This document shows, one piece after another, positions 19,075-53,961 of a stretch of DNA of 64,000 bases (within the stretch, counting starts at the first letter, position 1; each line of letters starts with the position of its first letter). Below the pieces are notes generated by a model that saw nothing but the letters and a program-made list of their open reading frames with translations, had not been told where the DNA came from and ran no database searches. A program made the position numbers and the translations under genes. Location: IMG/VR virus record IMGVR_UViG_3300010370_005113, positions 1 to 64,000 of that record. One strand, given 5' to 3'. This stretch comes from a virus.

Positions 19075-19076
19075 AT

Positions 19077-35059: not shown

Positions 35060-35067
35060 CATAAATA
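35060..35067 (+). promoter_or_regulatory. T4-type late promoter CATAAATA
   Basis: Located 5 bases after the stop of RCC1 fibre 2 and 22 bases before the next gene. Confidence 0.5.
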
Positions 35068-36941: not shown

Positions 36942-37520
36942 ATGAACCTCTTTGATTTAATTATTATTCAACCAAATATCATTCCACAAGAACACATAAG
37001 ACAACTCTTTCAACTCACCAGTCAACCAACATCAAATGCAACAGTTGGTTCTGGAGAAGAAAAAATAGAATTAGAAACCAGAAAAACCTTATGGTATCCA
37101 ATACCATTTCCAGTTCTACAAAATCTTAACAATGCAGTGATGTCTTGTTATCATTCATTTATTGAACCAAAATATCACTCAAAAGTTAAAAATATAGAAC
37201 CAACACAATTTCTAGGCTATCCTGTGGGAGGGCACTATATAGAACATAACGATTGTGAGAACTTTGAGAATGGACAATGGGTAAGAATTGCTCCGAGAGA
37301 TATATCAATACTGTTTTATCTCAATGACGATTATACTGGTGGAGAACTTGAATTTACTCAACTTGGTTTGACGATTAAACCAAAAACTGGTATGATGATT
37401 GCATTCCCTTCTTATAAAGAATTTGCTCATAAGGTACATCCAGTCACTTCTGGATTTCGTTATTCACTCGTCTCATGGTTAGAAACAGAACAAAAAGTTT
37501 ATGAAACAATACGAAGATAA
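36942..37520 (+). CDS. Prolyl-4-hydroxylase-type 2OG-Fe(II) oxygenase (island oxygenase 1)
   Basis: The 192-residue protein fits the P4Hc family, which hydroxylates peptidyl proline using 2-oxoglutarate, oxygen and iron. The iron motif is YIEH102-N-D104CENF, followed by the strand RDISILFYLNDDYTGGELEF. The distal part reads FAH163KVHPVTSGFR173YSLVSW, with H as the third iron ligand and R for 2-oxoglutarate. All key residues are present, so activity is likely. It begins the modification island directly after an RCC1 fibre and overlaps the next oxygenase by 20 bases. Each RCC1 blade carries one or more Pro in xPG context, a plausible but unproven substrate. Confidence 0.85.
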   Translation: MNLFDLIIIQPNIIPQEHIRQLFQLTSQPTSNATVGSGEEKIELETRKTLWYPIPFPVLQNLNNAVMSCYHSFIEPKYHSKVKNIEPTQFLGYPVGGHYIEHNDCENFENGQWVRIAPRDISILFYLNDDYTGGELEFTQLGLTIKPKTGMMIAFPSYKEFAHKVHPVTSGFRYSLVSWLETEQKVYETIRR

Positions 37521-38076
37521 AGGATTTCAGGTGGTTCCCCAGTTTGTACCACCATATTTTGCACAATACTTAAGAAACTATTTTGATTTATTAAGAGTAA
37601 ATGACCAAATTCCAAACAAGGGTGATGGTCAAGTTGCAAATTCATTAGGAATTTATGGAAACCCTGCATTTGATATGCTGATGCTCATGTCTCTTCCAAT
37701 GGTAGAAGAGATTGTTGGTAAAAAACTTTTACCGACTTATACTTATGCAAGAATTTATTTTAATAATGCAAATCTTCTTCCCCATGTAGACCGAGAAGAA
37801 TGTGAGCACTCTGTATCTATTTCTTTAGGTGGAGATTATGAAGCACTATGGCCTTTATGGTTTAAGAATGGCGATAAAGACCCCGAATATGCTGCAATGG
37901 GTCCTGGCGATGCAGTGATTTATCAAGGAAATAAGGTTCATCACTGGAGAGATGCCTTTGAAGGAAAGACACAATTTCAAGTTTTCATGCATTATGTGGA
38001 AGCAGAGGGAGAATATAAAGACAAACTCTACGACACACGACCTTATATTGGATTATCTGCTGATACGAAAAAATGA
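37501..38076 (+). CDS. 2OG-Fe(II) oxygenase-like protein (island oxygenase 2)
   Basis: The 191-residue protein begins KQYEDKGFQVVPQFVPPYFA and has the central strand TYTYARIYFNNANLLPH95VD97. After HSVSISLGGD come MGPGDAVIYQGNKVH147HWRDAF and TQFQVFMHYV. The H-x-D pair and the downstream HHWRD match a 2OG-Fe(II) dioxygenase facial triad. The substrate is unknown and could be a peptide side chain or a sugar precursor. It overlaps its neighbours at both ends, which supports a coupled operon. Confidence 0.75.
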   Translation: MKQYEDKGFQVVPQFVPPYFAQYLRNYFDLLRVNDQIPNKGDGQVANSLGIYGNPAFDMLMLMSLPMVEEIVGKKLLPTYTYARIYFNNANLLPHVDREECEHSVSISLGGDYEALWPLWFKNGDKDPEYAAMGPGDAVIYQGNKVHHWRDAFEGKTQFQVFMHYVEAEGEYKDKLYDTRPYIGLSADTKK

Positions 38077-39374
38077 TTGCACAACTCATTATTGAATTAA
38101 GTGAAAAAGGAGAACCAAAAGCAGCAAAAGAACTAGCAATAGCATATCTCAAACACGAAAAAGATGTTGAGATACTGAACTTGCTTGGAAAACTTCATCA
38201 TGACGATAAGGAATTTGATAAAGCACTGGAATGTATGAATGCACTTCCAGAAAATCCTGCTGTAATCATGAATAAAGCAAAGTGTCTTTATTATCTGAAG
38301 AGAGCACCAGAGGCAGAGAAACTTCTTTATTCACTTCCAAAGCAATATCGTGAAGACCCTTTGGTTCAAATTGATATGACCTTGTATAAAACTGCACAAG
38401 GTAAATTTGATGAGAGTAAGAAAATCCTGAAACCACTTGCTGGTTCATATCCACAAGCAGCATTTAATTATGGGTGGTTTCTGTTGGGTGATGGTGAACT
38501 TCAAGAAGGTTACAAATACATTCGTGAAGGTGCAAAGTTAAGAGTATGGGGTCATGAATGGTTACTCAAAGAACGTTATGATATTGATAAAGACCAACGA
38601 TGGAATGGAGAAACCGTAGACATCATTGCATACTATCTTGAAGGTGGTATGGGTGATGAAATGATTTTTGTTCGTTATGCAGAACAATTCCAGAAATATT
38701 GTAAGGAAGTTAAAATCTTCTGTACTGCTTCCATCAAGAAACTTCTAGAAGATTGTGGTTATGAGAACCTTTATCTTCATGAGGATATTGTAAGAACCAA
38801 ATGGAATAAGTTTGTTCCTGCAATGTCTGCTCCTTATTTTCTTGGACTAACTGAACCTTGTGAGAATGTTTCGTTTCCTTACTTAAAGAAGACATCAAAT
38901 CCAGTTCAAGAAATGCAGGATATTGCTGGAGACCAGAAAAAGATAGTCATTCGTTGGAAAGGTAATCCACAGTTTGAACATGACCAGTTTCGTAGTATTC
39001 CAATTGAAAAACTTCTAGGATTAGAGAAGTTTGGTCAGTTATTCTCTATTCAAATTGAAGACAGTGACTTACCAAAGAATGCAAATGTATGGGACTTATC
39101 CCACTTAATTTCTTCGTGGAGTGATACTTATGATATCTTTGCAGAGAGTGATTTGGTGATTACTTCATGTACTGCAACGGCTCACTTAGCAGGAGCAATG
39201 GGAGCAAAGGTAATCGTACTTCCACCATTAGTTCCTTATATTACCTGGGCATCAAATAAGTTTAGTTGGTATCCAGAGAATGTTGTCGTTGTTCAGCAGA
39301 TGGAGTATAATAACTGGGATAAGACGATTGAAAAACTTTATGGAGTAGTTGAGAATGCAATATCAAACTCATGA
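38073..39374 (+). CDS. TPR protein fused to a heptosyltransferase-like (GT9-type) glycosyltransferase
   Basis: The 433-residue protein has an N-terminal helical repeat region (residues about 1-170, TPR-like: KAAKELAIAYLKHEKDVEIL, ALECMNALPENPAVI, KAKCLYYLKRAPEAEKLLYS) and a C-terminal GT-B part. The latter shows GGMGDEMIFVRYAEQF (about 190), WKGNPQFEHDQFRSIP (about 294) and SDLVITSCTATAHLAGAMGA (about 355-370), then VIVLPPLVPYITW. This is the glycosyltransferase family 9 layout used by LPS heptosyltransferases. TPR plus GT-B is also seen in protein glycosyltransferases. An ADP-heptose pathway lies 12 kb downstream, so it may be the heptose user. Confidence 0.8.
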   Translation: MIAQLIIELSEKGEPKAAKELAIAYLKHEKDVEILNLLGKLHHDDKEFDKALECMNALPENPAVIMNKAKCLYYLKRAPEAEKLLYSLPKQYREDPLVQIDMTLYKTAQGKFDESKKILKPLAGSYPQAAFNYGWFLLGDGELQEGYKYIREGAKLRVWGHEWLLKERYDIDKDQRWNGETVDIIAYYLEGGMGDEMIFVRYAEQFQKYCKEVKIFCTASIKKLLEDCGYENLYLHEDIVRTKWNKFVPAMSAPYFLGLTEPCENVSFPYLKKTSNPVQEMQDIAGDQKKIVIRWKGNPQFEHDQFRSIPIEKLLGLEKFGQLFSIQIEDSDLPKNANVWDLSHLISSWSDTYDIFAESDLVITSCTATAHLAGAMGAKVIVLPPLVPYITWASNKFSWYPENVVVVQQMEYNNWDKTIEKLYGVVENAISNS

Positions 39375-39960
39375 GTTATTTCCTACCAGTGTCGTTAGAG
39401 TAAACTGTGATGGTCTCTTTATGGACCAAGACAGACAGATGATGATGCAAAGTGTAGACCAATTAATTGAGATGGGTGCTTATACACAAAATGAACTCAC
39501 TCCAAAGTATCAAACTCATGTAATTTTATTTCAAGATGATGCACCAGAGATTTGGAAACGACTAAGAACTAGTTTCTATGGTGCATGTAAGACTTATCTA
39601 GAAGTCGTTAAAGATTTCACGGGTAATCAAAATGCAATTGAGTTCACTGGTTCTGGTGCATGGTGTTATAAAGGATGGAAGTCACTTAATAAAGTGGAAA
39701 CAAATCCTTGGCATCATCACAACCCATCATTTCTTTCTGGAGTTTATTATCTAAGAGTTCCTGGTGATGGAAACACTGGTGGTACAGAATTTCATGACCC
39801 ACGAACTGCCCCAGCCATTGGAACAAGAAATCAATGTGTCTCACCAATTGAGAACTCATGGGTTATCTTTCCTGGTTGGTTACAACATCGTAGTAACTTT
39901 GTAGACACAGAAGAACCACGCTATGTGATTGCGGCAAATATCTATGCAAAAGTAAGATGA
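39355..39960 (+). CDS. 2OG-Fe(II) oxygenase-like protein (Oxy_5 type; island oxygenase 3)
   Basis: From the ATG at 39355 the protein has 201 residues. It shows HELFPTSVVRVNCDG at the start, a GSGAWCYKGWKSLNKVETNP strand, WHHHNPSFLSGVYYLRVPGD (iron-ligand region), GGTEFHDPRTAP and a C-terminal SWVIFPGWLQHRSNF and RYVIAANIY. This is the order of the putative 2OG-Fe(II) oxygenase family (2OG-FeII_Oxy_5), common in cyanophages. A TTG start at 39349 is possible but the ATG is preferred. It overlaps the GT9 gene by 20 bases. Confidence 0.8.
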   Translation: MQYQTHELFPTSVVRVNCDGLFMDQDRQMMMQSVDQLIEMGAYTQNELTPKYQTHVILFQDDAPEIWKRLRTSFYGACKTYLEVVKDFTGNQNAIEFTGSGAWCYKGWKSLNKVETNPWHHHNPSFLSGVYYLRVPGDGNTGGTEFHDPRTAPAIGTRNQCVSPIENSWVIFPGWLQHRSNFVDTEEPRYVIAANIYAKVR

Positions 39961-40646
39961 AAAGAGCAATTTTAACTTATTATAATGATGAGATTGATAA
40001 GAACCTTTTGATGTATCAGCAACAGGTTCTGGAGAAATTCAATACAACTGCTGATTATTATCCACTGTTCTGTAAGCAAGGAACTGACCAAATCATTCAT
40101 TATCAAGGTCTTGATTATGGAGTAGGTCAGTTGTTTAGTGAACAGTATGATAGTGTTTTGATTTTAGATGTGGATTGTATTCCATTAAACTCTTATGCAC
40201 TTGAATATATCTTTGAGAGAGCAGAGCAAAATGTACTCATTGGAAATGCTCAAAGGTCTGGGCACATTGAGAATGATGAGCATCTTTATATTGGTTCTTC
40301 TTGTTTATGCTTAAGTCGTCAAATCTATGAGGACTTTGGACGAATGACTTTTGCTCCTGACCACATTCAAGCAGATACCTGTGAGTATTATACTTATGAG
40401 GCTGAGAAAAGAGGTGTAGAACTTGAAATTTTTATGCCGAAGAATTATATTCGCCAACCAATTGGATGTGATTGGGACTTAGGAAAAGGAAGACCAAAGT
40501 ATGGTATTGGTACAACCTTTATGAACTCTTTGAGTGTTGAGATGTTCTTTCACTTGTTCTCAAGTCGTGATAGAGTGTATAATACTTACTTCTATGATAA
40601 GTGTGAGGAGGTCCTTCAAATAAATACATCAAAAGGAACAGAGTAA
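39957..40646 (+). CDS. Glycosyltransferase-like protein (GT-A fold)
   Basis: The 229-residue protein has KRAILTYYNDEIDKNLLMYQ at the start, a substrate strand (YDSVLILDVDCIPLN) with the metal-binding D-x-D motif of GT-A enzymes, then IGNAQRSGHIENDEHLYIGS and a FFHLFSSRDRVYNTYF tail. Donor and acceptor are not predictable. The start overlaps the previous gene by four bases (ATGA). A late promoter motif for the RCC1 fibre at 40653 lies inside its last codons. Confidence 0.7.
   Translation: MKRAILTYYNDEIDKNLLMYQQQVLEKFNTTADYYPLFCKQGTDQIIHYQGLDYGVGQLFSEQYDSVLILDVDCIPLNSYALEYIFERAEQNVLIGNAQRSGHIENDEHLYIGSSCLCLSRQIYEDFGRMTFAPDHIQADTCEYYTYEAEKRGVELEIFMPKNYIRQPIGCDWDLGKGRPKYGIGTTFMNSLSVEMFFHLFSSRDRVYNTYFYDKCEEVLQINTSKGTE
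40619..40626 (+). promoter_or_regulatory. T4-type late promoter AATAAATA inside a gene end
   Basis: The box lies within the coding end of the 39957 gene, 26 bases before RCC1 fibre 4. Confidence 0.5.
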
Positions 40647-40652
40647 AGTTCA

Positions 40653-41783
40653 ATGCCGATAAGACAAAATACCTGGGACTTAAAAGGACATTATGACTTA
40701 ACCAATAGTGGGCAGAATGCTTATTTGGGTGCTCCTATTTTATTTGCTTGGGGACAAAATGGTAAGGGACAACTAGGACAAAATAATACAACATATCGTT
40801 CATCACCAGTCCAAATACCAGGAATTACCTGGGGTTCTATAAGTATTGGATATTTTAACACGTTAGCAACCAAAACCGATGGAACCTTATGGTCATGGGG
40901 ATATAATAATCTTGGAGCATTAGGACAAAATAATAGAACATATTATTCATCACCAGTACAAATACCAGGAACTACATGGAATTCTGTTAATAGTGGTTAT
41001 CATTCATTAGCAACAAAAACTGACGGAACTCTATGGGCATGGGGTAGTGGTACTTGGGGACAACTGGGACAAAATAATGGAACATCATATTCATCACCAG
41101 TACAAATTCCTGGTACTACATGGAGTTCTGTGCGTATATCTAATGAACATTCATTAGCATCAAAAACTGACGGAACTTTATGGGCATGGGGTAATAATTT
41201 ATTTGGTCAACTAGGACAAACTAATACAACAAGATATTCATCACCAGTTCAAATACCAGGAACCACATGGAGTTCCATAAGTACTGGTGCTGCTAGTACA
41301 CTTAATGCTCTTGTATTAGCAACCAAAACTGATGGAACTTTATGGTCATGGGGATCTGGTACTTCGGGACAGCTAGGACAAAACAATGTGGTATCACGAT
41401 CATCACCAGTCCAAATACCAGGAACCGCATGGAGTTCTATTAGTGCTAGTAGTTCTGGACTTCATTCATTAGCAACCAAAACTGATGGAACCTTATGGTC
41501 ATGGGGTCTTAATCAGTATGGACAACTAGGACAAAATAGTAGAGTATCACAATCATCGCCAGTACAAATTCCTGGTACTACATGGAGTTCCATCGGTGCT
41601 GGTGGTTATGATGCATTAGCAACTAAAACTAATAATACTTTATGGTCATGGGGAGAAAATATCTATGGACAATTAGGACAAAATAATACAACAAATATAT
41701 CATCACCAGTACAAATACCAGGAACTCAATGGACTTCTATGAGTATTGCGTATAGAAGTTCTTTTGTACTACAACAACAATAA
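40653..41783 (+). CDS. RCC1-propeller fibre 4 (short N-terminus), inside the modification island
   Basis: The 376-residue protein has a short N-terminus (PIRQNTWDLKGHYDLTNSGQ) and seven RCC1 blades from about residue 30. It is flanked by a glycosyltransferase and a sulfotransferase, which ties the fibre family to the modification genes physically. Blade 4 (GQTNTTRYSSPVQIPG) shares DNA with blade 4 of fibre 2, and blade 6 (GQNSRVSQSSPVQIPG) with blade 1 of fibre 3, a sign of past recombination. Late promoter motifs flank the gene on both sides, so it can be transcribed apart from the island. Confidence 0.8.
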   Translation: MPIRQNTWDLKGHYDLTNSGQNAYLGAPILFAWGQNGKGQLGQNNTTYRSSPVQIPGITWGSISIGYFNTLATKTDGTLWSWGYNNLGALGQNNRTYYSSPVQIPGTTWNSVNSGYHSLATKTDGTLWAWGSGTWGQLGQNNGTSYSSPVQIPGTTWSSVRISNEHSLASKTDGTLWAWGNNLFGQLGQTNTTRYSSPVQIPGTTWSSISTGAASTLNALVLATKTDGTLWSWGSGTSGQLGQNNVVSRSSPVQIPGTAWSSISASSSGLHSLATKTDGTLWSWGLNQYGQLGQNSRVSQSSPVQIPGTTWSSIGAGGYDALATKTNNTLWSWGENIYGQLGQNNTTNISSPVQIPGTQWTSMSIAYRSSFVLQQQ

Positions 41784-41786
41784 ATA
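41779..41786 (+). promoter_or_regulatory. T4-type late promoter AATAAATA overlapping a stop codon
   Basis: The box overlaps the stop of RCC1 fibre 4 and lies 21 bases before the sulfotransferase gene. Confidence 0.55.
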
Positions 41787-41807
41787 CACAAAACATCATT
41801 TTACATC

Positions 41808-42641
41808 ATGCAACAACTTCATTACTGCCTAGGACTGCCTAGGACTTGCTCTTCAGTGTTAATGAACATCCTGAATGAGAACCCAAGAATTTTTACAACA
41901 GGAACCTGTCCAACACCATATCTCATTAGTGCTTGTAGAGACATCTCCACACAAGTCAGTGAGTTTATTGCAATGGACAAAGATGTGCTCAATGATGCAT
42001 ATCTTGGTTTCTTAAGACAAGGACTTCGTGGATGGTTTGAGAGTATGACTGATAAACCAGTTGTATTCTCAAAGTCAAGAGTATGGGCAGAATACTTTAC
42101 TCATACTTTTGCACTCAACCCAAACTCAAAATACTTAGTCATTCTCAGAGACCTGAGAGACATCATTTGTTCTTTTGAGAGCCTACTTCACAAGTATCCT
42201 AATATCATTATTGGTGATACTGAGATGCCTTTCCAACACAATACGTTTGAAAAGCGTATGGAACTGTATTGCACTGATGGAATGGCGAACCTAGGAAGAC
42301 CTTTGCATATGCTTCCTCATGTTCTTGAAGTTGCTCAAAGACATCCAGGAAACTTTTTCTTCTTAAGAACAGAAGATTTTAATGATAATCCAAAAGGAAC
42401 TCTCAAAAAACTTTATGAGTTTCTTGGAGAAGAATACTTTGAGCACGACTTAGAGAACATTCCTGTTCCTGATTATTATGAGCACGATACTGTTTATCGT
42501 TCTATGGTGTCTCATAAGACAGGAACAAAACTTAAGAAACTGGAACCACGCTGGCCTCAATTCATGACGCCAGAACAATCGCAACTAGTCATTCAAAACA
42601 ACCTCTCATACTATCAGGCATTCTATCCAGAAATGTTATGA
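41808..42641 (+). CDS. Sulfotransferase
   Basis: The 277-residue protein has the PAPS-dependent sulfotransferase signatures. GLPRTCSSVLMNIL near residue 9 is the 5'-phosphosulfate loop. VVFSKSRVWAEY and LVILRDLRDIICSFESL near residue 112 contain the 3'-phosphate-binding R and S. It transfers sulfate to a hydroxyl of a sugar or a tyrosine; which one cannot be read from sequence. It begins the second part of the island after RCC1 fibre 4, overlaps the next gene by four bases, and is rare as a phage gene. Possible role: sulfation of fibre glycans or of the host surface. Confidence 0.85.
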   Translation: MQQLHYCLGLPRTCSSVLMNILNENPRIFTTGTCPTPYLISACRDISTQVSEFIAMDKDVLNDAYLGFLRQGLRGWFESMTDKPVVFSKSRVWAEYFTHTFALNPNSKYLVILRDLRDIICSFESLLHKYPNIIIGDTEMPFQHNTFEKRMELYCTDGMANLGRPLHMLPHVLEVAQRHPGNFFFLRTEDFNDNPKGTLKKLYEFLGEEYFEHDLENIPVPDYYEHDTVYRSMVSHKTGTKLKKLEPRWPQFMTPEQSQLVIQNNLSYYQAFYPEML

Positions 42642-43360
42642 ATTATTATAATTCTTATGAGATGGGTGTTGCTGGAACTTATATTATTTCTCTTCCAGGA
42701 AATCCAGTATCAGAACAATTAACAAATCAGTGCTTTCAATCTTGCATTCAAGTTGGACAACCAAATCCAATGATTGTTCCTGGTTTTGATGCATCAGGTT
42801 CTCAAGTCAAACTTCAGGAACATGAGTTGGGTAAACCAGTTGGAGAACTAGGATCAATCAAAGTTCCAGAAGCACTTCAAGGACAAGCATTCATCAACTT
42901 TTTAAGGTTGCATAGAGCAGATATGTTAATGACCCAGATTGCTTGTTTCTTGTCTCACTATTCTTTGTGGTGTTTATGTCTTGCACAAGACCGACCTATT
43001 GTAATTCTGGAACATGATGCTATAATGGTAAAACCATATCAGGTTCATAAGTATTATAATAATATCGTGTACTTAGGTTCTAAGGAGCAATACAAACACG
43101 GTAAGGAGGTTTATTCTATTCCTCCTCATGCAAGTGACCATAAAGGTCTAGACCGGTTCATCTGCCGTGCTCATGCATATGCAATAGACCCCGCGATTGC
43201 AAAGAACATGGTGTCTTATGTAATTCAACAGGGTATGACGACTTCACTAGATGCAATACTTCGTAGTGATTTGTTTGGAATTGTACAGGATGGTGTTTAT
43301 GCTTATGACGAAAATCATGGACTTTCAACAATTGCGGAAGGCGGAAGAGCAGTAGGATGA
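42638..43360 (+). CDS. Glycosyltransferase family 25-like protein
   Basis: The 240-residue protein shows TYIISLPGNPVSEQLTNQCF at the start and the family 25 (LPS biosynthesis) core MTQIACFLSHYSLWCLCLAQ followed by PIVILEHDAI, then CRAHAYAIDPAIAKNMV near the end. The usual E-D-D is E-H-D here, which could alter metal binding. The start overlaps the sulfotransferase stop (ATGA). Such enzymes add hexoses to LPS or to hydroxylysine in collagen, which is suggestive next to hydroxylases but unproven. Confidence 0.75.
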   Translation: MNYYNSYEMGVAGTYIISLPGNPVSEQLTNQCFQSCIQVGQPNPMIVPGFDASGSQVKLQEHELGKPVGELGSIKVPEALQGQAFINFLRLHRADMLMTQIACFLSHYSLWCLCLAQDRPIVILEHDAIMVKPYQVHKYYNNIVYLGSKEQYKHGKEVYSIPPHASDHKGLDRFICRAHAYAIDPAIAKNMVSYVIQQGMTTSLDAILRSDLFGIVQDGVYAYDENHGLSTIAEGGRAVG

Positions 43361-43887
43361 ATACATTAAATGTAGAGAAAGTTCAAAAAGAACTTCCAGT
43401 TTTTACTACAATTCTTGATAATTATCAGGAGTTGAATTCTTATCTTAAAGAAGTCATTCGGGAACATCGGCGTCTTCATCCAGAAACTAATGAGAGCAAT
43501 GTAAAAGCTTGGCATTCAAGTTGGGTCACACATCAAGAAAATCCAAAGTTTCAACCGATTGTGGATTTGGTTCTAAGTGCTTGTGAGTTTATTTCTCAAG
43601 GATACTTTGAGCAAAAGATGCAGTTTAAGTGTTTTAATATGTGGGCAATGGAATATGAGCGAGGAGAGTATGCTGTAAGACACTCACACTATCCAAGTGA
43701 TTTTGCATGTGCATATTATGTGGATGTTGAACCTGGATGCGCTCCAATTGTCTTTGAGGAAACATTAGAAGTTCACCCACAAAACGGAATGCTTGTAGTG
43801 TTTCCTGCAATGTTGCATCACGAAGTTCCCCCAACAAATGCACGAAGAACTGTGATTTCCATGAACATTGATAAACATTATGTCTAA
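43357..43887 (+). CDS. 2OG-Fe(II) oxygenase-like protein (Oxy_5 type; island oxygenase 4)
   Basis: The 176-residue protein has MWAMEYERGEYAVRHSHYPS followed by DFACAYYVDVEPGCAPIVFE and a C-terminal GMLVVFPAMLHHEVPPTNAR with RTVISMNI. The H-x-H (HSH) and downstream LHHEV-R motifs give the Fe(II)/2OG pattern of the same putative oxygenase family as the 39355 protein. It overlaps the previous gene by four bases and the next by eight. Confidence 0.75.
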   Translation: MNTLNVEKVQKELPVFTTILDNYQELNSYLKEVIREHRRLHPETNESNVKAWHSSWVTHQENPKFQPIVDLVLSACEFISQGYFEQKMQFKCFNMWAMEYERGEYAVRHSHYPSDFACAYYVDVEPGCAPIVFEETLEVHPQNGMLVVFPAMLHHEVPPTNARRTVISMNIDKHYV

Positions 43888-45432: not shown

Positions 45433-45433
45433 G

Positions 45434-46896: not shown

Positions 46897-47510
46897 AAAC
46901 ACAGTTTCGTAAGAACTTAATTGTTGTTGATAACTTCTACTCCAATCCCGATGCAGTTCGTGAGTTTGCACTGAATGCAGAGTATGAGGAACGTGGAGGA
47001 AAGAACTGGCCAGGAAGAGATAGTTTATATGAGCACGGGAAAGAAGAACTTACAAAGATGTGTTCTCAAATTGTAGGAGAACAACTGACCACAAAACCAT
47101 GTAACAAGTGCTCTTATTTCCGTATGACCAAAGAGGGTGAATATGGAACTCAAGACATTCACTTTGACCCAAATCCAGGACTAGTTTGGGCAGGAGTGAT
47201 TTATCTTACTCCAACCACTCATCCTACAGGTGGTACAAAGTTCTGGAAACATAAACAAACTGGATGGGAATTTGCACCAACTCAGGAGGAAGCAGCACAA
47301 CATGGTGTACATTCTCATGGAGATATGGTAAAATTCTTTAATACTGATGGGAAAGATAGAAGTAAGTGGATAGAAACTGATAATATTAGTTTTAAACACA
47401 ATCGTCTCGTATTGTTCAATCCATTTATGTTTCATTCCAATGGTGATTGGTTCGGTACAACAAATCATGATGCACGTTTAGTTCAATTGCTATTTTTCCA
47501 TGGAGTATAA
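46893..47510 (+). CDS. 2OG-Fe(II) oxygenase-like protein (island oxygenase 5)
   Basis: The 205-residue protein has NLIVVDNFYSNPDAVREFAL at the start, the iron motif TQDIHFDPNPGLVWAGVIYL (H-x-D) and GGTKFWKHKQTGWEFAP. It ends with RLVLFNPFMFHSNGDWFGTT, which supplies the distal His, and DARLVQLLFF, which supplies the Arg. This resembles the DUF6445-like cyanophage oxygenase group. The next gene, a Cys-rich metal-binding protein, overlaps its end by 11 bases. Confidence 0.75.
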   Translation: MKTQFRKNLIVVDNFYSNPDAVREFALNAEYEERGGKNWPGRDSLYEHGKEELTKMCSQIVGEQLTTKPCNKCSYFRMTKEGEYGTQDIHFDPNPGLVWAGVIYLTPTTHPTGGTKFWKHKQTGWEFAPTQEEAAQHGVHSHGDMVKFFNTDGKDRSKWIETDNISFKHNRLVLFNPFMFHSNGDWFGTTNHDARLVQLLFFHGV

Positions 47511-47913
47511 AACAAGAGAGTGTGGAGAGTGCAATCTCTGCTGTAAGTGGCTCAGTCACGAAGTTTATGGGCAATGGGTTACTCCTGATAATCCATGTCG
47601 GTTTGTAAGAGATTGCTGCACAATTTATGAAGACCGACCATTGCAATGTAGAACCTATCACTGTGCATGGTTACAAGGATTACTTCCAGAGTGGATGTAT
47701 CCTCACCTAATTGGTATCATCGTAAGCGTAAAGAACTGGCCAGGTGGTCAGTATCTTGAAGTGAGTGAAGCGGGAAAACCATTAACGATTGAAGTTCTTT
47801 CTTGGATATTAAAGATGAATGTGCCTGTTAAATATCAACTACATAGAACGTGGAATTTAGTCGGTCCTGAAGAATTTAAACAATTTATTGCAAAACAAAA
47901 TGAAACTATCTGA
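47500..47913 (+). CDS. YkgJ-type Cys-rich metal-binding protein
   Basis: The 137-residue protein begins with RECGECNLCCKWL (C-x2-C-x2-CC) and continues CRFVRDCCTIYEDRPLQC and RTYHC, matching the CxxCxxCC zinc/iron-chelating YkgJ family. Nine cysteines are in the first 60 residues. Members are thought to bind Fe or an Fe-S cluster. Since it is translationally coupled to an Fe(II) oxygenase, it may deliver iron or support the oxygenases; this is inference. Confidence 0.75.
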   Translation: MEYKTRECGECNLCCKWLSHEVYGQWVTPDNPCRFVRDCCTIYEDRPLQCRTYHCAWLQGLLPEWMYPHLIGIIVSVKNWPGGQYLEVSEAGKPLTIEVLSWILKMNVPVKYQLHRTWNLVGPEEFKQFIAKQNETI

Positions 47914-48541
47914 AGTTTATTATTCTCATACTGGTCGTATCAGTGATAAATGGAAACACTACTTTGATTATTATGATCGGCACCTTGGACGATTTGTAGG
48001 AAAACAATTTACTCTTCTTGAGATTGGAGTTCAGTGTGGTGGTTCACTGCAAGTCTGGAAGAAGTATTTTGGTCCTGGGGTAAAGATTGTTGGTATTGAT
48101 ATCGACCCTCGAACCAAATTTGAAGAACCACAAATTCAAGTAGAAATTGGAAGTCAAAGTGACCATGAGTTTCTTAAGATGGTTGCTCAAAAGCACGGAC
48201 CTTTTGATGTAATTATTGATGATGGTTCTCATATTCAAACTGATATAATGGCGTCTTTTGTTAGTCTTTATTCGCAACTTAAAGACCGTGGTGTTTATGT
48301 GGTTGAAGATACTCATACATCTCTTTGGGGTAATTTTAATGGTGGTATCAAAAATCCAAACAACTTTGTAGAGATTGCAAGTCGTTTTGCGATGGATGTA
48401 AACCGTGAGTTTGCTGAAGAGCATTATCCAATCTCAATTCCAGACCTAAAAGAGATTTGTTTTTACAACTCAATGATTTTTATTGAGAAAGAAAACACAC
48501 CAAAAGCAGAACCATGCAGAGTGGGAACTCAATCACACTAA
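47900..48541 (+). CDS. Class I SAM-dependent sugar O-methyltransferase-like protein
   Basis: Counted from the ATG at 47900 (213 residues). It opens KLSEVYYSHTGRISDKWKHY and has FTLLEIGVQCGGSLQVWKKY, IVGIDIDPR, FDVIIDDGSHIQTDIMASFV and a GVYVVEDTHTSLW motif. This is the pattern of the rhamnosyl/mycinose-type 2'-O-methyltransferases, where the I-D-D-G-S-H site binds metal. Likely it methylates a sugar hydroxyl in the glycan. Confidence 0.8.
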   Translation: MKLSEVYYSHTGRISDKWKHYFDYYDRHLGRFVGKQFTLLEIGVQCGGSLQVWKKYFGPGVKIVGIDIDPRTKFEEPQIQVEIGSQSDHEFLKMVAQKHGPFDVIIDDGSHIQTDIMASFVSLYSQLKDRGVYVVEDTHTSLWGNFNGGIKNPNNFVEIASRFAMDVNREFAEEHYPISIPDLKEICFYNSMIFIEKENTPKAEPCRVGTQSH

Positions 48542-49269
48542 TGAACAATTGGTTTTTAATTACATCATCCATTAATGTTCAGCATGGAGTGTTTGATGAG
48601 CAAAAAAGATTTCAACAAACACTTGTAACAATTGCAAGTATTCGTAAGAGATGTGAGAATTCTAAAATTGTTCTCATAGAAGGTGCTCCAAATTCACTCA
48701 CACCAGAACAATTAAAAGTATTTGAGAATACTTGTGATATTGTAATGGACTTATCCAACACAGAGTTTATTCAGTTTGCTCATAGAACTCAAGATATAGA
48801 AACACTAAAGCATCCTGGCGAATTATATCTGTTGGGTTCTTTTATGAGCCAACAGAATATGATTTCAGAGAACGATAGAGTTTATAAAATCAGTGGTCGC
48901 TATTATCTCAACTCAAACTTCAATTTTCATCTGCACACTGCTGCAAAGAATAAAATCGTGATGGGGCATAAGAAGAAATCTTATGGTTATTATGATATAA
49001 AATCAGGGGAACAAATGCCTGCGATTACTGACTATAACTATAAGACAAGATTATATTCTTTCTGTGGTTCATTAGCAGATTATATGAAGAATAAGTACCA
49101 GGAGATGTTTGATTTTATTCTACCATTTTATGATACTGGTGGATTTACTGATATTGAACACATCATGTATAAGTTTTTAGACCACGATAAAGTGATTGAG
49201 ATGGAACCTCTTGGAGTGAGTGGTATTTTTGCAAATGGTAGAGATGGAGACAAAGAAGTCAATGACTAA
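48541..49269 (+). CDS. Putative glycosyltransferase-like protein
   Basis: The ATG at 48541 overlaps the previous stop (TAATG) and gives 242 residues; another ATG at 48514 would add nine. Visible segments are NNWFLITSSINVQHGVFDEQ, IRKRCENSKIVLIEGAPN, YKISGRYYLNSNFNF and MFDFILPFYDTGGFTDIEHI. The VYKISGRYYL strand recalls small GT-like proteins in cyanophage glycan clusters, but there is no clear D-x-D motif. The call is based mostly on context. Confidence 0.5.
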   Translation: MNNWFLITSSINVQHGVFDEQKRFQQTLVTIASIRKRCENSKIVLIEGAPNSLTPEQLKVFENTCDIVMDLSNTEFIQFAHRTQDIETLKHPGELYLLGSFMSQQNMISENDRVYKISGRYYLNSNFNFHLHTAAKNKIVMGHKKKSYGYYDIKSGEQMPAITDYNYKTRLYSFCGSLADYMKNKYQEMFDFILPFYDTGGFTDIEHIMYKFLDHDKVIEMEPLGVSGIFANGRDGDKEVND

Positions 49270-49891
49270 GATTGCAATTTTTTATCATCTGTATCAAACA
49301 GATACTGCACAATTCATTTACCAACAACAGATGCATCGGTTGTATACATCTGGATTGGTTGATGCGGCAGAGTTTATTCATATCGGAATTAGTGGAGAAC
49401 ATGAGTTGTTCTCTAAGCCAAGAAATGCAATCGTTCAGTACAATGATTTTAAAGGTGATGAAGGTGGAACAATGGTTTCCATGATGGAATTCATTATGAA
49501 AAACCCCGACTATAAAGTTCTATTCTTTCATGGAAAAGGTGCAAGTAAGAATGATATGTACCATCCACAACTCCAAGCATGGCGATTGTTCATGGAGTAT
49601 TATGTGATTGATAAGTGGAAGCAGTGTTTGTTTCACTTGAATGAATACAACTGCGTGAGTGTAAAGGTGAGAGAAAAACCACTTCCGCACTTTAGTGGTA
49701 ATTTCTGGTGGGCAAATGCAGATTATCTACAAACACTTAATCATGATTTGTTATTCACTCGTGGATTTGAAAGTAAAGTAGACCGTGAACTTTGGATTGG
49801 AACTGGTGACTTCAGACCAAAAGATTTGCATCCTGTTGATATCAATCTAAGTATGCACTCAACAATCTACACTGAAGATAATTATCTATGA
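49262..49891 (+). CDS. Glycosyltransferase-like protein with HGKGAS motif
   Basis: The ATG at 49262 gives 209 residues; a GTG at 49220 is less likely. It has TKIAIFYHLYQTDTAQFIYQ, YKVLFFHGKGASKNDMYHP, a WRLFMEYYVIDKWKQCL helix and LPHFSGNFWWANADYLQTL. The FFHGKGAS and SGNFWWA motifs are shared by uncharacterised GT-A-like proteins in surface polysaccharide clusters. It overlaps the preceding gene by eight bases. Confidence 0.6.
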   Translation: MTKIAIFYHLYQTDTAQFIYQQQMHRLYTSGLVDAAEFIHIGISGEHELFSKPRNAIVQYNDFKGDEGGTMVSMMEFIMKNPDYKVLFFHGKGASKNDMYHPQLQAWRLFMEYYVIDKWKQCLFHLNEYNCVSVKVREKPLPHFSGNFWWANADYLQTLNHDLLFTRGFESKVDRELWIGTGDFRPKDLHPVDINLSMHSTIYTEDNYL

Positions 49892-50649
49892 TTAATGTTC
49901 TTGATTATTCTAGATTGAATTCAGAATTCATTAACGCAAAGCCTTTTCATCATGCGGTGATGGATAATTTCTTTGATGAAGAAACTGCACTTGCAATTAG
50001 TCATGAGTTTCCTGATTACAATTCGGATGTTTGGTATGTTTATGATAATCCATTAGAGAAGAAAAGAACCTGTAATTCTTGGGAGACATTTTCTAAAAAT
50101 ACTTACTCTGTGTTTTGCTATTTGAACTCACCAGAGTTCATTGCAAAACTCAAAAAGATTACTGGAATTAAAAAACTTTATCCAGACATTGGATTGCATG
50201 GTGGTGGTATGCACATTCATGGTCAAGGGGATAAGTTAAATGTTCATCTTGATTATTCTATTCATCCAAAACTTAAACTTCAAAGAAAGTTAAATCTTAT
50301 CATTTATCTTGGAGAAAACTGGAATCCAGAATGGGGTGGGCAGTTAGAGTTTTGGTCATCAGATAAAAAACAATGTGTGACTTCTATTGATACATTGTTC
50401 AATCGTGCGGTCATCTTTGATACAACACAGAATTCTTATCATGGACTACCAAGCCCTTTAAAATGCCCAGATAATTATTATCGTAAAAGTATTGCAGTCT
50501 ATTATCTTACGGAACCAGAAAAGAACTGTCCGACACATTCAAAAGCAATCTATATTCCAACAGAAGAACAAAAGAACAATCCAGAAATTCAAGACATTAT
50601 TCGTAAGAGAGCGAGTATGATTACTGTAAAAGAGGTTTATAAACTATGA
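49888..50649 (+). CDS. 2OG-Fe(II) oxygenase (Oxy_3 type; island oxygenase 6)
   Basis: The 253-residue protein shows the full Fe(II)/2OG pattern. GDKLNVHLDYSIHPKLKLQR supplies H-x-D, LNLIIYLGENWNPEWGGQLE supplies the family WGG-LEFW strand, and YHGLPSPLKCPDNYYRKSIA supplies distal His and the 2OG-binding Arg. Members often hydroxylate peptidyl residues or modify sugars. It precedes the ADP-heptose genes with a four-base overlap. Confidence 0.85.
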   Translation: MINVLDYSRLNSEFINAKPFHHAVMDNFFDEETALAISHEFPDYNSDVWYVYDNPLEKKRTCNSWETFSKNTYSVFCYLNSPEFIAKLKKITGIKKLYPDIGLHGGGMHIHGQGDKLNVHLDYSIHPKLKLQRKLNLIIYLGENWNPEWGGQLEFWSSDKKQCVTSIDTLFNRAVIFDTTQNSYHGLPSPLKCPDNYYRKSIAVYYLTEPEKNCPTHSKAIYIPTEEQKNNPEIQDIIRKRASMITVKEVYKL

Positions 50650-51041
50650 AAGTTTTTGTAAATGGGACATTTGATGTTCTTCACCGTGGGCATTTAGAGT
50701 TACTCAACTATGCAAAGTCATTAGGTGATTATTTGTATGTTGCAATTGATAATGATTTGCGAATACAAGAAAAGAAAGGACCATCAAGACCAGTTCATTC
50801 TTTAGAGGAAAGAACGTTTCACTTAGAAAATCTCAAAGCAGTTGATGCTGTTCTTTCTTTTGGAAGTGATGAACAACTTGAGGGTCTTGTAAAAATCATA
50901 GAACCTGATATAATGGTAGTAGGTAGTGATTGGAAAGGAAAACCAGTTATTGGTTCTCAATATGCAAAAGAACTTAAGTTTTTTGATAGAATAGATGGAT
51001 ACTCAACAACAAAAATCATTCAAAGTATTATTAATCGGTGA
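50646..51041 (+). CDS. hldE2: HldE-type (RfaE2) heptose-1-phosphate adenylyltransferase
   Basis: The 131-residue protein has the cytidylyltransferase fold signature GTFDVLHRGH (residues 7-16), then EERTFHLENLKAVDAVLSF, IEPDIMVVGSDWKGKPVIGS and a GYSTTKII loop near residue 118. These features, with STT rather than the TagD pattern, fit the C-terminal domain of HldE, which makes ADP-heptose from heptose-1-phosphate and ATP. In most bacteria it is fused to the kinase; here the kinase is the next gene and the two overlap by 47 bases, in the reverse order of the fusion. A glycerol-phosphate cytidylyltransferase is the alternative. Confidence 0.8.
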   Translation: MKVFVNGTFDVLHRGHLELLNYAKSLGDYLYVAIDNDLRIQEKKGPSRPVHSLEERTFHLENLKAVDAVLSFGSDEQLEGLVKIIEPDIMVVGSDWKGKPVIGSQYAKELKFFDRIDGYSTTKIIQSIINR

Positions 51042-51750
51042 TAGTTGCACCGACCTTTATATCTACGGAGAAGTCAGGCGATTAAATCCAGAAGCACCAG
51101 TTCCCATTCTCAACTATAAGAGAACAGAAACACGTCAGGGAATGGCGTGGAATGTTTATAATAATCTTAAAGCATTTGGTCTTGAAGTTTATATGATGAC
51201 CAATGAAGAAAAGATTACAAAGACAAGATACATTGATGAAAAGACCAATCAACAAATTCTTCGTGTAGATGATGAAGTTTTTTGTAAACCAATGGAATAT
51301 CTTATTCCAGATGAGACCTATGATGCAGTCGTCATTAGTGATTACAGTAAAGGGTTTGTAAAAAGTAGTTCAATGTTTGAGATTGCACATGGAACCAAGT
51401 GCCCCGTCTTCATTGATACTAAACGAACTATTGTTCCTTCTTATGGTTGCTATGTGAAGGTTAATGATTTAGAATATAGCAAACTGACGGAGAAGCATGA
51501 TAATCTCATCATCACTCGTGGAGGTGAAGGTGCAGAGTATGATGGAGTTCTGTATCCAGCAGAAAAAGTAAATGTCTATGATGTAGTCGGTGCAGGTGAT
51601 ACATTTCTTGCTGCACTGACTTATGGTTACTTAAAGTATGGCTCAATTCAAGAAGCAATTCCACTTGCAAATAAAGCTGCAGCAATTGCAGTATCAAACC
51701 CAGGAACTTATGTACTGACGGAAGATGACGTTAAAAACTTATGTGATTGA
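50995..51750 (+). CDS. hldE1: HldE-type (RfaE1) heptose-7-phosphate kinase
   Basis: The 251-residue PfkB-family kinase has the HldE1 signature: LLIGDSCTDLYIYGEVRRLN followed by PEAPVPIL, and a QGMAWNVYNNLKAFGLEV region in place of the usual GGAAN. Then come AVVISDYSKGF, KVNDLEYSKL, LIITRGGEGAEY and the C-terminal VVGAGDTFLAALTYGYLKYG, whose Asp is the catalytic base. It phosphorylates heptose-7-phosphate at C1. It overlaps the adenylyltransferase by 47 bases and the HAD gene by 26. At 251 residues it is shorter than the usual kinase domain of about 315. Confidence 0.85.
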   Translation: MDTQQQKSFKVLLIGDSCTDLYIYGEVRRLNPEAPVPILNYKRTETRQGMAWNVYNNLKAFGLEVYMMTNEEKITKTRYIDEKTNQQILRVDDEVFCKPMEYLIPDETYDAVVISDYSKGFVKSSSMFEIAHGTKCPVFIDTKRTIVPSYGCYVKVNDLEYSKLTEKHDNLIITRGGEGAEYDGVLYPAEKVNVYDVVGAGDTFLAALTYGYLKYGSIQEAIPLANKAAAIAVSNPGTYVLTEDDVKNLCD

Positions 51751-52060
51751 TATTGATGGGACCATCTGTGATAAAGATGTGTGCCGTGAAGATGGTGACT
51801 ATGAAACCAGTATTGCAAAACCAGAAAGAATTGCAATGATTAACTCATTGTATGATGAAGGGCATACAATTAAATACTTCACTGCCCGTGGAATGGGAAG
51901 ATACAATTCCAGAATACGTGCTCATAAGACCTTTTATGACTTAACTTATAATCAACTTAGGTCCTGGGGATGTAAGTTTCATGAGTTAATTCTAGGTAAA
52001 CCCAGCGGGGATATATACATTGATGATAAAGGTGTGAATGCTGATGACTTCTTCAATTGA
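51725..52060 (+). CDS. Small HAD phosphatase (LPS/capsule-cluster type)
   Basis: The 111-residue protein has VID9ID11GTICDKDV (the D-x-D-G-T nucleophile motif), HTIKYFTARGMGRYNSRI (motif II Thr) and ELILGKPSGDIYIDDKGVNA (motif III Lys and motif IV DD). It resembles small HAD phosphatases next to HldE and nucleotidyltransferases in LPS and capsule clusters. By context it may remove the 7-phosphate from heptose-1,7-bisphosphate, the GmhB step, between the kinase and the adenylyltransferase. Confidence 0.8.
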   Translation: MTLKTYVIDIDGTICDKDVCREDGDYETSIAKPERIAMINSLYDEGHTIKYFTARGMGRYNSRIRAHKTFYDLTYNQLRSWGCKFHELILGKPSGDIYIDDKGVNADDFFN

Positions 52061-52397
52061 TTGGGTGCCTAAGGGTTGGGGCGGAGAAAAAATCATCTGT
52101 AATGGTGAAGAATACTGCGGTAAACTTTTATACTTTGTAAAAGGCAAGAAGTGCTCCTTTCATTATCATAAACTCAAGGACGAAACCTTTTACATTCAAT
52201 CAGGTAAAATTCTTCTCAAATACAGTGATGAAGATGACCTTGCAAATGCACTTGAAGTTGTTCTAAACCCAGGTGATAAGTTTCATATCTATCGTGGATT
52301 GAGACACCAAATGATTGCATTGCAAGACACAGAGCTCTTTGAGTTCTCTACTCAACACTTTGATGATGATAGTTATAGATTAATTCATGGCGACTGA
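52044..52397 (+). CDS. Cupin-fold protein (sugar-processing type)
   Basis: Counted from the ATG at 52044 (117 residues); an ATG at 52038 would add two. The protein has VPKGWGGEKIICNGEEYCGK, then GKKCSFHYHKLKDETFYIQS (cupin motif 1, H-x-H ... E), GDKFHIYRGLRHQMIAL (motif 2, H) and LFEFSTQHFDDDSYRL. The pattern G-KCSFHYHK-K-ETFY is like small single-domain cupins in polysaccharide clusters and those in mannose-6-phosphate isomerase type II. Metal binding is expected; the reaction is unknown. Confidence 0.75.
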   Translation: MTSSIDWVPKGWGGEKIICNGEEYCGKLLYFVKGKKCSFHYHKLKDETFYIQSGKILLKYSDEDDLANALEVVLNPGDKFHIYRGLRHQMIALQDTELFEFSTQHFDDDSYRLIHGD

Positions 52398-53208
52398 ACA
52401 TTTACTTGTAATTCTTCAATCACACTCAAGAAGTAATGCTCTTCCAGGAGCAAAGGAAGAGTTGAGATTTCCTGGTGTTCCAAAAATAGAAGTATCAAAA
52501 CGTTGTATTCTTTCTTTGGTTAACTCATTGAATTATGCACGATATAAAAATCCAAATCTAGATATTCATCTGCAGGTCTTTGATGATAATTCCAGTGAGG
52601 ATTTTTTGATTATATTAGAAAGAATTTTAAAACTGTCCCACTTTAAGGTAACCTTCACTCAACTTGGTGGTGTGGGAATTATGAAGTCCATTCTTGCATG
52701 TTATTCTTATGCTAGAGACCATGGACAACAGCATGTCTACTGCGTTCAAGATGATTTCTTACACCATGAGACAGCAGTTCATTATATGCACGAGAACTAT
52801 AAGAACTTCGCAGAGAAAGTAGGAAAAGACATAACTCTCACTGGAAATCATGATATGCGATATTTGATGTATCCAGATAATATTGCAGTGGGATGTAAAG
52901 TTGTTCCTGGAATAGACCAGTGCTGGAGAACAACTCATGCAAGCCAATTTACATCCATGATGACTGTAAAATTAATCAGAGACAACTGGGATTTGTTTGA
53001 AAAATTTGGAAATGTTGAATATGATGATGGATGCTGTGAAGATAAGAGCATCAATCATCTGTATTTCTATCGTGGATATGTAGAATTCTGTCCAATTAGT
53101 TCTTTGGTTCTACAAATTCAATGGGATATTCATAAGGACTTTTATATCACTTGGGAAGAGTGGTGGAAGAAGTATGAACTCTCAAGATTTAAGATAGTCA
53201 GCGACTGA
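52387..53208 (+). CDS. Glycosyltransferase-like protein (paralogue of the 43880 protein)
   Basis: The 273-residue protein has EHLLVILQSHSRSNALPGAK, SKRCILSLVNSLNYARYK, HLQVFDDNSSEDFL and HVYCVQDDFLHHETAVHYM. The C-terminal part includes WRTTHASQFTSMMTVKLIRD and YDDGCCEDKSINHLYF. Layout and motifs match the 43880 glycosyltransferase. Its last 27 bases overlap the end of the leftward HldD gene. Confidence 0.75.
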   Translation: MATEHLLVILQSHSRSNALPGAKEELRFPGVPKIEVSKRCILSLVNSLNYARYKNPNLDIHLQVFDDNSSEDFLIILERILKLSHFKVTFTQLGGVGIMKSILACYSYARDHGQQHVYCVQDDFLHHETAVHYMHENYKNFAEKVGKDITLTGNHDMRYLMYPDNIAVGCKVVPGIDQCWRTTHASQFTSMMTVKLIRDNWDLFEKFGNVEYDDGCCEDKSINHLYFYRGYVEFCPISSLVLQIQWDIHKDFYITWEEWWKKYELSRFKIVSD

Positions 53209-53961
53209 TAGAAACTCATAATCAAACTTGTTATCAGCACAAGTATAAGTTTGATACTTACCTTGAAGGTGTTCTGGAAATGGAATGTATTCTATTTCTC
53301 CACCTTCTTTTTTTACGACTAATTCTGCAACTTCTTGAAAACTGATAGGATTACCAGTACCTAAATCATAAATTCCCGATGGTGCTTCATTGTTCAATAC
53401 AATGTTCACAATATCATCCACACATACAAAATCACGAAGAAACTTATCAGAACCTTCAAAGAGTTTGAGTTTACCAGTTTCTTTGATTTGCTTAGTGAAC
53501 TTAGAGATAGGTGATGCCTGGTCTCCTTTATGGTCTTCACCTTCACCGTATACATTGAAATAGCGGAATGATTGAAGTGAAGAAAACTTATCTAGATTAT
53601 CCTGAATGAAATAATCAATCTGCAGTTTGGTAATTGCATAATAGTTCAGTGGATTAATCTGTCCGTTAGTATTTCCATAAACCGATGCAGAAGATGCAAA
53701 CTTCACTGGAATTTGGTATTGGATTGCATAATCAAACAACTGCAAAGTAAACGCCACATTATGATGATGTAGAGTAGCAATGTTGCGTTCTGTTGTTGAT
53801 GAAATTGCACCCTGATGAAGAATGAGTGATACTTTATCCCAATCTTGAAAGGACGATAAGAACTTAAAGCAGTTATCTTTTTCAACTTGAATGACTGGTT
53901 CTGAAAGTTGTTTGAGAAAGTTTTTCCCAATAAAACCTGATGAACCTGTAAGAATAATCAT
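53182..53961 (-). CDS. hldD: HldD-like ADP-heptose 6-epimerase / NAD-dependent epimerase
   Basis: The 259-residue protein is an extended SDR epimerase: LTGSSGFIG (NAD-binding, residues 4-12), HQGAISSTTERN (the HldD-like H-x-GA-x-S region), SSASVYGN and the catalytic Y108-AIT-K112 pair. Also present are YFNVYGEGEDHKGDQASPIS and FVCVDDIVNIVL. The HQGA-S-T-E and GE-HKGD-AS patterns are typical of HldD, which converts ADP-D,D-heptose to ADP-L,D-heptose; E. coli HldD has 310 residues. It reads opposite to the island and lies just before the second RCC1 fibre block. A minus-strand TATAAT (53976-53981) with a weak -35 sits just upstream, which would allow separate early expression. Confidence 0.85.
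   Translation of the reverse strand: MIILTGSSGFIGKNFLKQLSEPVIQVEKDNCFKFLSSFQDWDKVSLILHQGAISSTTERNIATLHHHNVAFTLQLFDYAIQYQIPVKFASSASVYGNTNGQINPLNYYAITKLQIDYFIQDNLDKFSSLQSFRYFNVYGEGEDHKGDQASPISKFTKQIKETGKLKLFEGSDKFLRDFVCVDDIVNIVLNNEAPSGIYDLGTGNPISFQEVAELVVKKEGGEIEYIPFPEHLQGKYQTYTCADNKFDYEFLSVADYLKS

Follow-up and report, generated by a model that had tools for sequence, protein, structure and literature searches.

Organization of the locus

The window, that is, the whole 64,000-nucleotide stretch of DNA that was analysed, belongs to a viral record of 70,918 bases, and its source is a T4-like cyanophage. Positions 36942 to 53961 hold an island of 24 tightly packed enzyme genes that lie between and around genes for RCC1 beta-propeller fibres, so that the existence of a modification island interleaved with propeller fibres, as proposed in an earlier sequence-only reading, is borne out by profile searches and gene coordinates. 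The overlaps of 4 to 20 bases claimed for neighbouring genes hold at their lower end, whereas at the upper end they reach about 50 bases, several gene starts being uncertain. All genes described below are on the plus strand except for one epimerase gene. No membrane segment is found in any of the island proteins (no hydrophobic segment above 1.6), and the window contains only one tRNA, at 19076. The gene content of the island differs between lineages, as is apparent from turnover in related loci.

The record contains 76 RCC1 repeats spread over 11 proteins, of which ten begin inside the window and one beyond it. Upstream of the island are RCC1 propeller fibres at 32005..33933 and 33946..35055 (both PF00415/PF25390) and at 35802..36938 (RCC1 repeats). 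Sited among these genes is a conserved protein (35090..35797) that matches no Pfam family, turns up again in related loci, likewise between RCC1 genes, and is possibly a fibre assembly factor. Downstream, fibres are encoded at 54022..55623 and 58848..61109 (PF00415), at 55641..57227, 57240..58820 and 61109..62671 (RCC1 repeats), and from 62684 to 64000, where the last gene (RCC1 repeats) runs on beyond the window. The fibre previously noticed inside the island (40653..41783) is confirmed by a structure model (pLDDT 90.1) with 28 strands, which forms a seven-bladed beta-propeller of the UVR8/HERC2/RCC1 fold. RCC1 proteins are part of the virion in W70, a phage of Escherichia coli, and in GAP32 (PMC11370258, PMC5259590). 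Many other phages have RCC1 fibres without any such island; these non-cyanophage fibres were considered as counter-examples, and they indicate that the fibre fold can do without the island. In the columns of about 2,250 RCC1 repeats no added glycosylation motif was found, the non-cyanophage comparison comprising only 5 aligned repeats, too few to be fair, and SSPxQ and TxW, which are invariant, seem to have a structural role. The N-x-T of the window was considered as a modification sequon and is not kept in relatives among the repeats tabulated, and for this reason no modification site is claimed in the RCC1 repeat.

Enzymes of the island

Six proteins, the number given in the sequence-only reading, fit the class of 2OG-Fe(II) prolyl/asparaginyl hydroxylases as judged by family matches and by an HxD/HxH...H metal-site-like pattern kept in all six; a peptidyl substrate is only predicted for them. 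They comprise a prolyl-4-hydroxylase/PiuC-like protein (36942..37520; PF13640, E 4e-15), which among solved structures comes closest to a prolyl 4-hydroxylase and to PiuC, a protein with an HVD...H pattern that carries the PHROG label 'ferrochelatase' (37501..38076; phrog_2954), two PF13759 proteins (39349..39960, E 3e-11; 43357..43887, E 5e-11), a DUF6445 protein (46893..47510; PF20043, E 4e-16) misleadingly named 'minor coat protein' in PHROG, and a second PF13640 protein (49888..50649, E 3e-17).

About nine glycosyltransferases had been proposed. Three pass Pfam cut-offs, namely members of GT25 (42638..43360; PF01755, E 8e-11), GT2 (43868..44725; PF00535, E 5e-7) and GT17 (46069..46896; PF04724, E 3e-22), and a fourth (38073..39374) is supported by structure, as set out below. 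A putative GT2 enzyme (52387..53208; PF00535, E 0.05) is sub-threshold, and the remaining candidates match no named glycosyltransferase family: a putative GT-A type enzyme with a DVD motif (39957..40646), one with a DAD motif (45434..46084), and two further putative enzymes (48514..49269; 49220..49891), the latter conserved in marine relatives. The two methyltransferases noted earlier stand, one being CmcI-like (44722..45432; PF13578/PF04989) and the other matching PF13578 and phrog_21658 (47888..48541), and there is a Cys-rich metal-binding-like protein (47500..47913; phrog_9155) with no Pfam match. By family matches, the segment 50646-53961 reads as a nucleotide-sugar cassette composed of an HldE C-domain-like sugar-phosphate adenylyltransferase (50646..51041; PF01467, TIGR02199 below cut-off), an HldE N-domain-like sugar kinase (50995..51750; PF00294, TIGR02198 below cut-off), a HAD phosphatase-like protein (51725..52060; TIGR01689, weak), a cupin (52038..52397; PF07883) and, on the minus strand, an HldD-like NAD epimerase (53182..53961; PF01370, TIGR02197 E 9e-62). 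With regard to ADP-heptose synthesis, the HldE- and HldD-like best matches are all below the curated cut-offs and no GmhA was seen.

The island also encodes one sulfotransferase, as had been recognized (41808..42641; PF00685/PF13469), and a phmmer search shows it to be homologous to a sulfotransferase domain that is fused to the 38073-type glycosyltransferase in freshwater phages. Sites resembling T4-type late promoters are located at 35060..35067 (CATAAATA), upstream of 35090, at 40619..40626, upstream of the RCC1 fibre 40653, and at 41779..41786, upstream of the sulfotransferase. The NATAAATA sites lie upstream of fibre genes and sulfotransferase alike, and 15 of 18 on the plus strand are no more than 40 nt from the start of a gene.

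A TPR glycosyltransferase genomically coupled to RCC1 fibres

The protein encoded at 38073..39374 (here TPR-GT) is the core of the association described in this section. Its AlphaFold model (pLDDT 94.6) has an all-helical TPR N-terminus, matched by Pfam TPR_19, that forms a superhelix and is followed by a GT-B domain. OGT and SPINDLY (GT41), which glycosylate proteins and share the combination of TPR and GT-B, rank top in a Foldseek search with this model; unlike them, TPR-GT lacks the GT41 signature among its Pfam matches, has a shorter TPR superhelix, and reaches TM-scores to OGT of only 0.3-0.4. Pfam gives no GT9 match (PF01075) to 38073, and among the weaker structural matches are 3tov and a viral model named Aah/TibC. 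On its best matches the architecture is of the FlmG/OGT kind, from which transfer to Ser/Thr of proteins is only predicted.

A sample of 42 viral records was picked solely by a neutral tail-fibre gene, 10 of them with RCC1 and 32 without. TPR-GT is present in 10/10 of the former and 0/32 of the latter (Fisher 7e-10), and the association is recovered after dereplication (7 vs 29; p about 1e-7) and when the sample is limited to records that extend 16 kb or more downstream (9 vs 21; p 7e-8). A sulfotransferase is found in 7/10 versus 1/32 records and is sited directly after an RCC1 gene, and 2OG oxygenases are found in 9/10 versus 19/32. The co-occurrence check suggested by the sequence-only reading is therefore positive for TPR-GT and sulfotransferase and negative for the oxygenases, the number of which had been taken as a sign of fibre substrates. 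No such specific link exists: most RCC1 records lack PF13640 (present in 11/43), and 2OG oxygenases occur in 14/16 T4-like cyanophage genomes (PMC3037559). As they are not RCC1-specific, they were rejected as the core of the system, and so was the heptose-like cassette, the sugar kinase of which is found in 4/10 versus 4/32 records (p 0.08).

A reverse search with the fused sulfotransferase-TPR-GT protein as query retrieved 65 new loci, all of which contain RCC1 ORFs. RCC1 lies within 9 kb of TPR-GT in 43 of 44 distinct loci (median gap 9 bp), and in the 44th (L111) it is found elsewhere in the same record; the fusion is present in 27/44, and PF13469 in 14/25 aligned sequences. Loci L110 and L111, which at first gave the impression of a TPR-GT without RCC1, both carry it at record level. 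With copies from overlapping loci counted, the nearest RCC1 gene is on the same strand for 139/139 TPR-GT genes. RCC1 contigs that lack TPR-GT (L033, L073, L087-L089) are all fragments. Among 50,697 phage records, TPR-GT matches only AG-345-E08, S-SRM01 and BUCT-ZZ01, which are also the best RCC1 matches; BUCT-ZZ01, which infects the laboratory strain Synechococcus elongatus PCC 7942, has RCC1 fibres with only one such glycosyltransferase beside them. A glycosyltransferase-methyltransferase fusion in this phage is only suggestive, the methyltransferase match being below cut-off. A bacterial origin of the sulfotransferase fusion was also considered and rejected; its one match is to a Halothiobacillus MAG, on a contig of 3.2 kb in which phage-type RCC1 sequence is also present and which is probably misbinned phage DNA. 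Strict co-occurrence and adjacency show that TPR-GT is genetically dedicated to RCC1 fibres, and since it accompanies them so consistently in other phages, the fibres themselves are the likeliest of its possible targets.

Comparison with known systems

One of the closest parallels by description is FlmG, the flagellin O-glycosyltransferase of Caulobacter (PMC7591256), a cytoplasmic enzyme with an N-terminal TPR and a C-terminal GT-B domain. It shows that a GT-B domain can owe its binding of the substrate to a TPR domain. FlmG and, by prediction, TPR-GT each serve a family of related, repeated subunits of a surface appendage, with a sugar supplied by dedicated enzymes. TPR-GT differs from FlmG in being phage-encoded, in its predicted beta-propeller fibre substrate, in the additional fused or adjacent sulfotransferase, and in that the island genes show no pseudaminic acid donor. 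The autotransporter heptosyltransferases TibC and Aah (PMC4358343) likewise represent sugar transferases dedicated to a repeat-rich adhesin and are linked to ADP-heptose, the heptose donor here being putative; however, the BAHT-type N-terminal beta-barrel and iron finger are not in the 38073 model, which has TPR helices instead. The LPS-type clusters of P-SSM2, S-SM2 and S-SSM7 (PMC3037559) share with the island many glycosyltransferases in a T4-like cyanophage. Those clusters are located near hli03/phoH and tRNAs, whereas the island is embedded in the fibre region, together with the late promoters of the fibres; neither that position nor lipid-carrier or membrane steps were found for the island.

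Proposed function of the island

The island is somewhat more likely than not a late-expressed cytoplasmic system that decorates the phage's own RCC1 beta-propeller fibres; the earlier idea of fibre modification is thus partly supported. This reading builds on the gene content, the propeller fold, the TPR and GT-B architecture, the strict genomic coupling and the late-promoter positions, and it is favoured also by the lack of membrane segments in the island proteins and by the virion RCC1 proteins of W70 and GAP32. Against it speak the RCC1 repeats with no added glycosylation motif, the low TM-scores to OGT with neither a GT41 nor a GT9 Pfam match, the RCC1 contigs that lack TPR-GT, fragments though they are, and the many phages whose RCC1 fibres come without an island. 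We infer protein as the acceptor, the identity of the sugar, the order of steps and the benefit to the phage. TPR-GT would dock on newly made fibre protein by its TPR superhelix and its GT-B domain would transfer a sugar to the fibre, as OGT, SPINDLY and FlmG do to their targets, after which the sulfotransferase would sulfate the glycosylated product. In this marine lineage the product may be elaborated by the other glycosyltransferases, the methyltransferases and the 2OG oxygenases, partly with sugar from the heptose-like cassette, and the fibres would end up with a surface of variable chemistry. The oxygenases, methyltransferases and cassette are best read as lineage-specific additions. A longer assembly line in the cytoplasm is put forward tentatively and is rather doubtful. 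In it, 2OG oxygenases of the marine lineage would act before the TPR-guided enzyme and hydroxylate the side chains to which sugars are added next, and with the fused or adjacent sulfotransferase and with methylation the bacteriophage would bear sulfated, methylated glycoprotein fibres.

The main rival is remodelling of the host surface. The enzymes would then act on LPS or some other glycan at the surface of the infected cyanobacterium, and the change might, for example, keep progeny and competing phages from binding if they depend on the receptor that RCC1 recognises. The GT25, GT2 and GT17 families act on LPS and capsule, cyanophages do carry LPS-type clusters (PMC3037559), and co-occurrence of fibres and enzymes would be expected here too, because both concern the same receptor and the target would matter only to phages with an RCC1 fibre. 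Yet the island is without flippase, polymerase, lipid-carrier transferase or membrane segment, the sole strictly linked enzyme has an OGT-like TPR architecture, late promoters are common to enzymes and fibres, and in three divergent phages TPR-GT adjoins fibre genes directly and is not in the usual LPS clusters, so that this explanation appears unlikely, if a serious one.

Genomic coupling could also arise if near-identical flanking RCC1 repeats served as recombination sites, the block being exchanged or inherited whole with enzymes and fibres functionally uncoupled. Exact DNA stretches of 32-68 bases common to RCC1 genes, RCC1 genes on both sides of TPR-GT in 102/139 cases and the turnover of island content would suit such cargo. 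Random cargo is improbable, however, given that TPR-GT is in all RCC1-bearing records of the neutral sample while 2OG oxygenases, sugar kinase and GT25 vary among them, and that it persists, with changing fusion partners, where identity has fallen to about 22-30%. Very improbable is glycosylation of a different virion component (other fibres, the baseplate or the capsid), the RCC1 genes being mere neighbours; it would agree with L110 and L111, where TPR-GT is directly 3' of a non-RCC1 fibre gene, and with a glycosylated capsid protein suggested for a mycobacteriophage (PMC11256854), but both of those records carry RCC1 genes too, and TPR-GT is never present where the same tail fibre occurs without RCC1 (0/32).

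Decoration of the RCC1 fibres thus remains the preferred reading. Phage host range is set by tail fibres, and its variation is usually sought only in the fibre sequence. If the preferred reading is true, receptor-binding proteins could also be diversified chemically, in a manner invisible to sequence-based host prediction, and there would be a reason why cyanophages carry at least some of their puzzling stock of glycosyltransferases.

The fibres and the enzyme island

The viral record is 70,918 bases long, with the window forming its first 64,000 bases, and predicted genes for a Gp32-like ssDNA-binding protein and for baseplate, tail-tube, hub and large tail-fibre proteins place the virus among the T4-like cyanophages. 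A search of the full 70,918 bases recovered 76 RCC1 repeats spread over 11 proteins. RCC1 proteins are virion components in phages W70 and GAP32 (PMC11370258, PMC5259590). The RCC1 fibre inside the island (40653; genes are named by start coordinate) is modelled as a seven-bladed propeller of 28 strands (pLDDT 90.1), its nearest folds being UVR8, HERC2 and RCC1. A 235-aa protein (35090-35797) with no Pfam match is found again between the first two RCC1 genes of related loci and may be a fibre assembly factor. A small minus-strand protein (27820-28221) adjoins the large tail fibre, and similar proteins occupy the same place in three other loci (L094, L110, L111).

The island (36942-53961) holds 24 enzyme genes in addition to fibre 40653. 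Family scans supported six 2OG-type proteins, one sulfotransferase and two methyltransferases; of the glycosyltransferases proposed in the sequence-only reading, GT25, GT2 and GT17 enzymes were borne out and four candidates stay putative. A nucleotide-sugar cassette resembles HldE/HldD, with scores below curated cut-offs.

A TPR glycosyltransferase associated with RCC1 fibres

The only Pfam match of protein 38073 is to TPR repeats. Its AlphaFold model (25 aligned sequences; pLDDT 94.6, pTM 0.91) consists of twelve helices followed by an alternating alpha/beta GT-B part, hence TPR-GT. The best Foldseek matches in the PDB were bacterial and human OGT and plant SPINDLY, with a GT9 structure lower down; TM-scores were modest (0.3-0.4), perhaps owing to differing domain angles. 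Among viral models the top match was a 'TPR protein' of S-SRM01 (TM 0.84). By sequence, 38073 is not a member of GT41 or GT9. Its domain order is like that of Caulobacter FlmG, whose TPR part binds flagellins (PMC7591256). Because of the OGT and SPINDLY matches and this common order, the modelled protein is taken to be built like a protein glycosyltransferase.

The sequence-only reading, in which the island enzymes may modify the RCC1 fibres, had made itself dependent on co-occurrence of the two across genomes, and for TPR-GT this co-occurrence was found. The first 820 residues of tail fibre 21841 served as a neutral anchor for fetching contigs, and 42 whole records were scored: TPR-GT was present in exactly the 10 records with RCC1, and 32 had neither (Fisher p 7e-10; 1e-7 with near-identical contigs collapsed; 7e-8 when records extending less than 16 kb past the anchor are dropped; all three values uncorrected for shared descent). 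In the same records the sulfotransferase occurred in 7/10 with RCC1 versus 1/32 without (p 3e-5, dereplicated 0.003), GT25 in 7/10 versus 5/32, a sugar kinase in 4/10 versus 4/32, and 2OG family PF13640 in 9/10 versus 19/32.

Used as a query, the distant relative L075 returned 65 new loci, all 65 with RCC1 ORFs. Over all loci, 44 distinct TPR-GT genes were counted. Of these, 27 carry a sulfotransferase as an N-terminal fusion, 16 are unfused, and one, that of phage BUCT-ZZ01 (L011 21063-22787), has weak methyltransferase resemblance in its C-terminal part. BUCT-ZZ01 has RCC1 fibres, and nearby there is no 2OG, sulfotransferase or glycosyltransferase island. RCC1 lay within 9 kb of 43 of the 44 genes, and elsewhere in the record for the last (L111). 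Among 50,697 phage records, TPR-GT was confined to three phages, which are the three best RCC1 matches. Conversely, RCC1 is accompanied by TPR-GT in 60 of 77 loci; two of the remaining 17 are other stretches of TPR-GT-bearing contigs and most others end close to their RCC1 genes, leaving L033, L073 and L087-L089 as credible exceptions. A 3.2-kb contig (L257) in a Halothiobacillus MAG, bearing a sulfotransferase-TPR-GT fusion and the start of an RCC1 fibre, is probably misbinned phage DNA.

Sulfotransferase and 2OG oxygenases

The sulfotransferase stands directly after an RCC1 gene in the window (41808), in S-SRM01 and in those RCC1-bearing anchor records that have one, and by sequence comparison it is homologous to the glycosyltransferase-fused domain of freshwater phages. 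This fusion (L075 3760-5526 and relatives) is common in freshwater viral contigs, always with adjoining RCC1 fibres. Fusion in one lineage and adjacency in another typically indicate that two proteins act in one pathway.

The order of the 2OG oxygenases is conserved in marine relatives (L009, L017-L031, L054, L170-L179), and the first in the island is nearest to prolyl 4-hydroxylase. They are absent from most freshwater-type loci; in cyanophages without RCC1 they are frequent (see also PMC3037559). They are an addition to the core. In the lineage of L135 (19355-19924, minus strand) and L132 (10443-11012, minus strand), a 2OG oxygenase sits immediately next to a fibre gene that precedes the RCC1 block.

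Timing and probable target

The T4-like late promoter motif NATAAATA has 18 plus-strand sites, 15 of them no more than 40 nt ahead of a gene start, against at most 4 for rearrangements that do not overlap the motif itself. These late-promoter-like sites span 1147-62674, marking transcription units throughout the tail and fibre region. They precede fibre genes, including RCC1 genes 40653, 54022, 55641, 57240, 58848 and 62684, as well as sulfotransferase 41808, downstream of which genes are packed with almost no gaps, so the island enzymes are probably produced late, together with the fibres.

The enzymes might instead remodel the host surface, which we consider rather unlikely. A hydrophobicity scan found no membrane-spanning stretch in any island protein, nor did genes for a lipid-carrier step, a flippase or a polymerase turn up. 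Soluble enzymes and absent membrane steps suit a cytoplasmic protein target, although LPS transferases of the peripheral kind are likewise soluble. No modification site was apparent in the RCC1 repeat alignment. We lean, with modest confidence, towards reading the island as serving the decoration of fibres.
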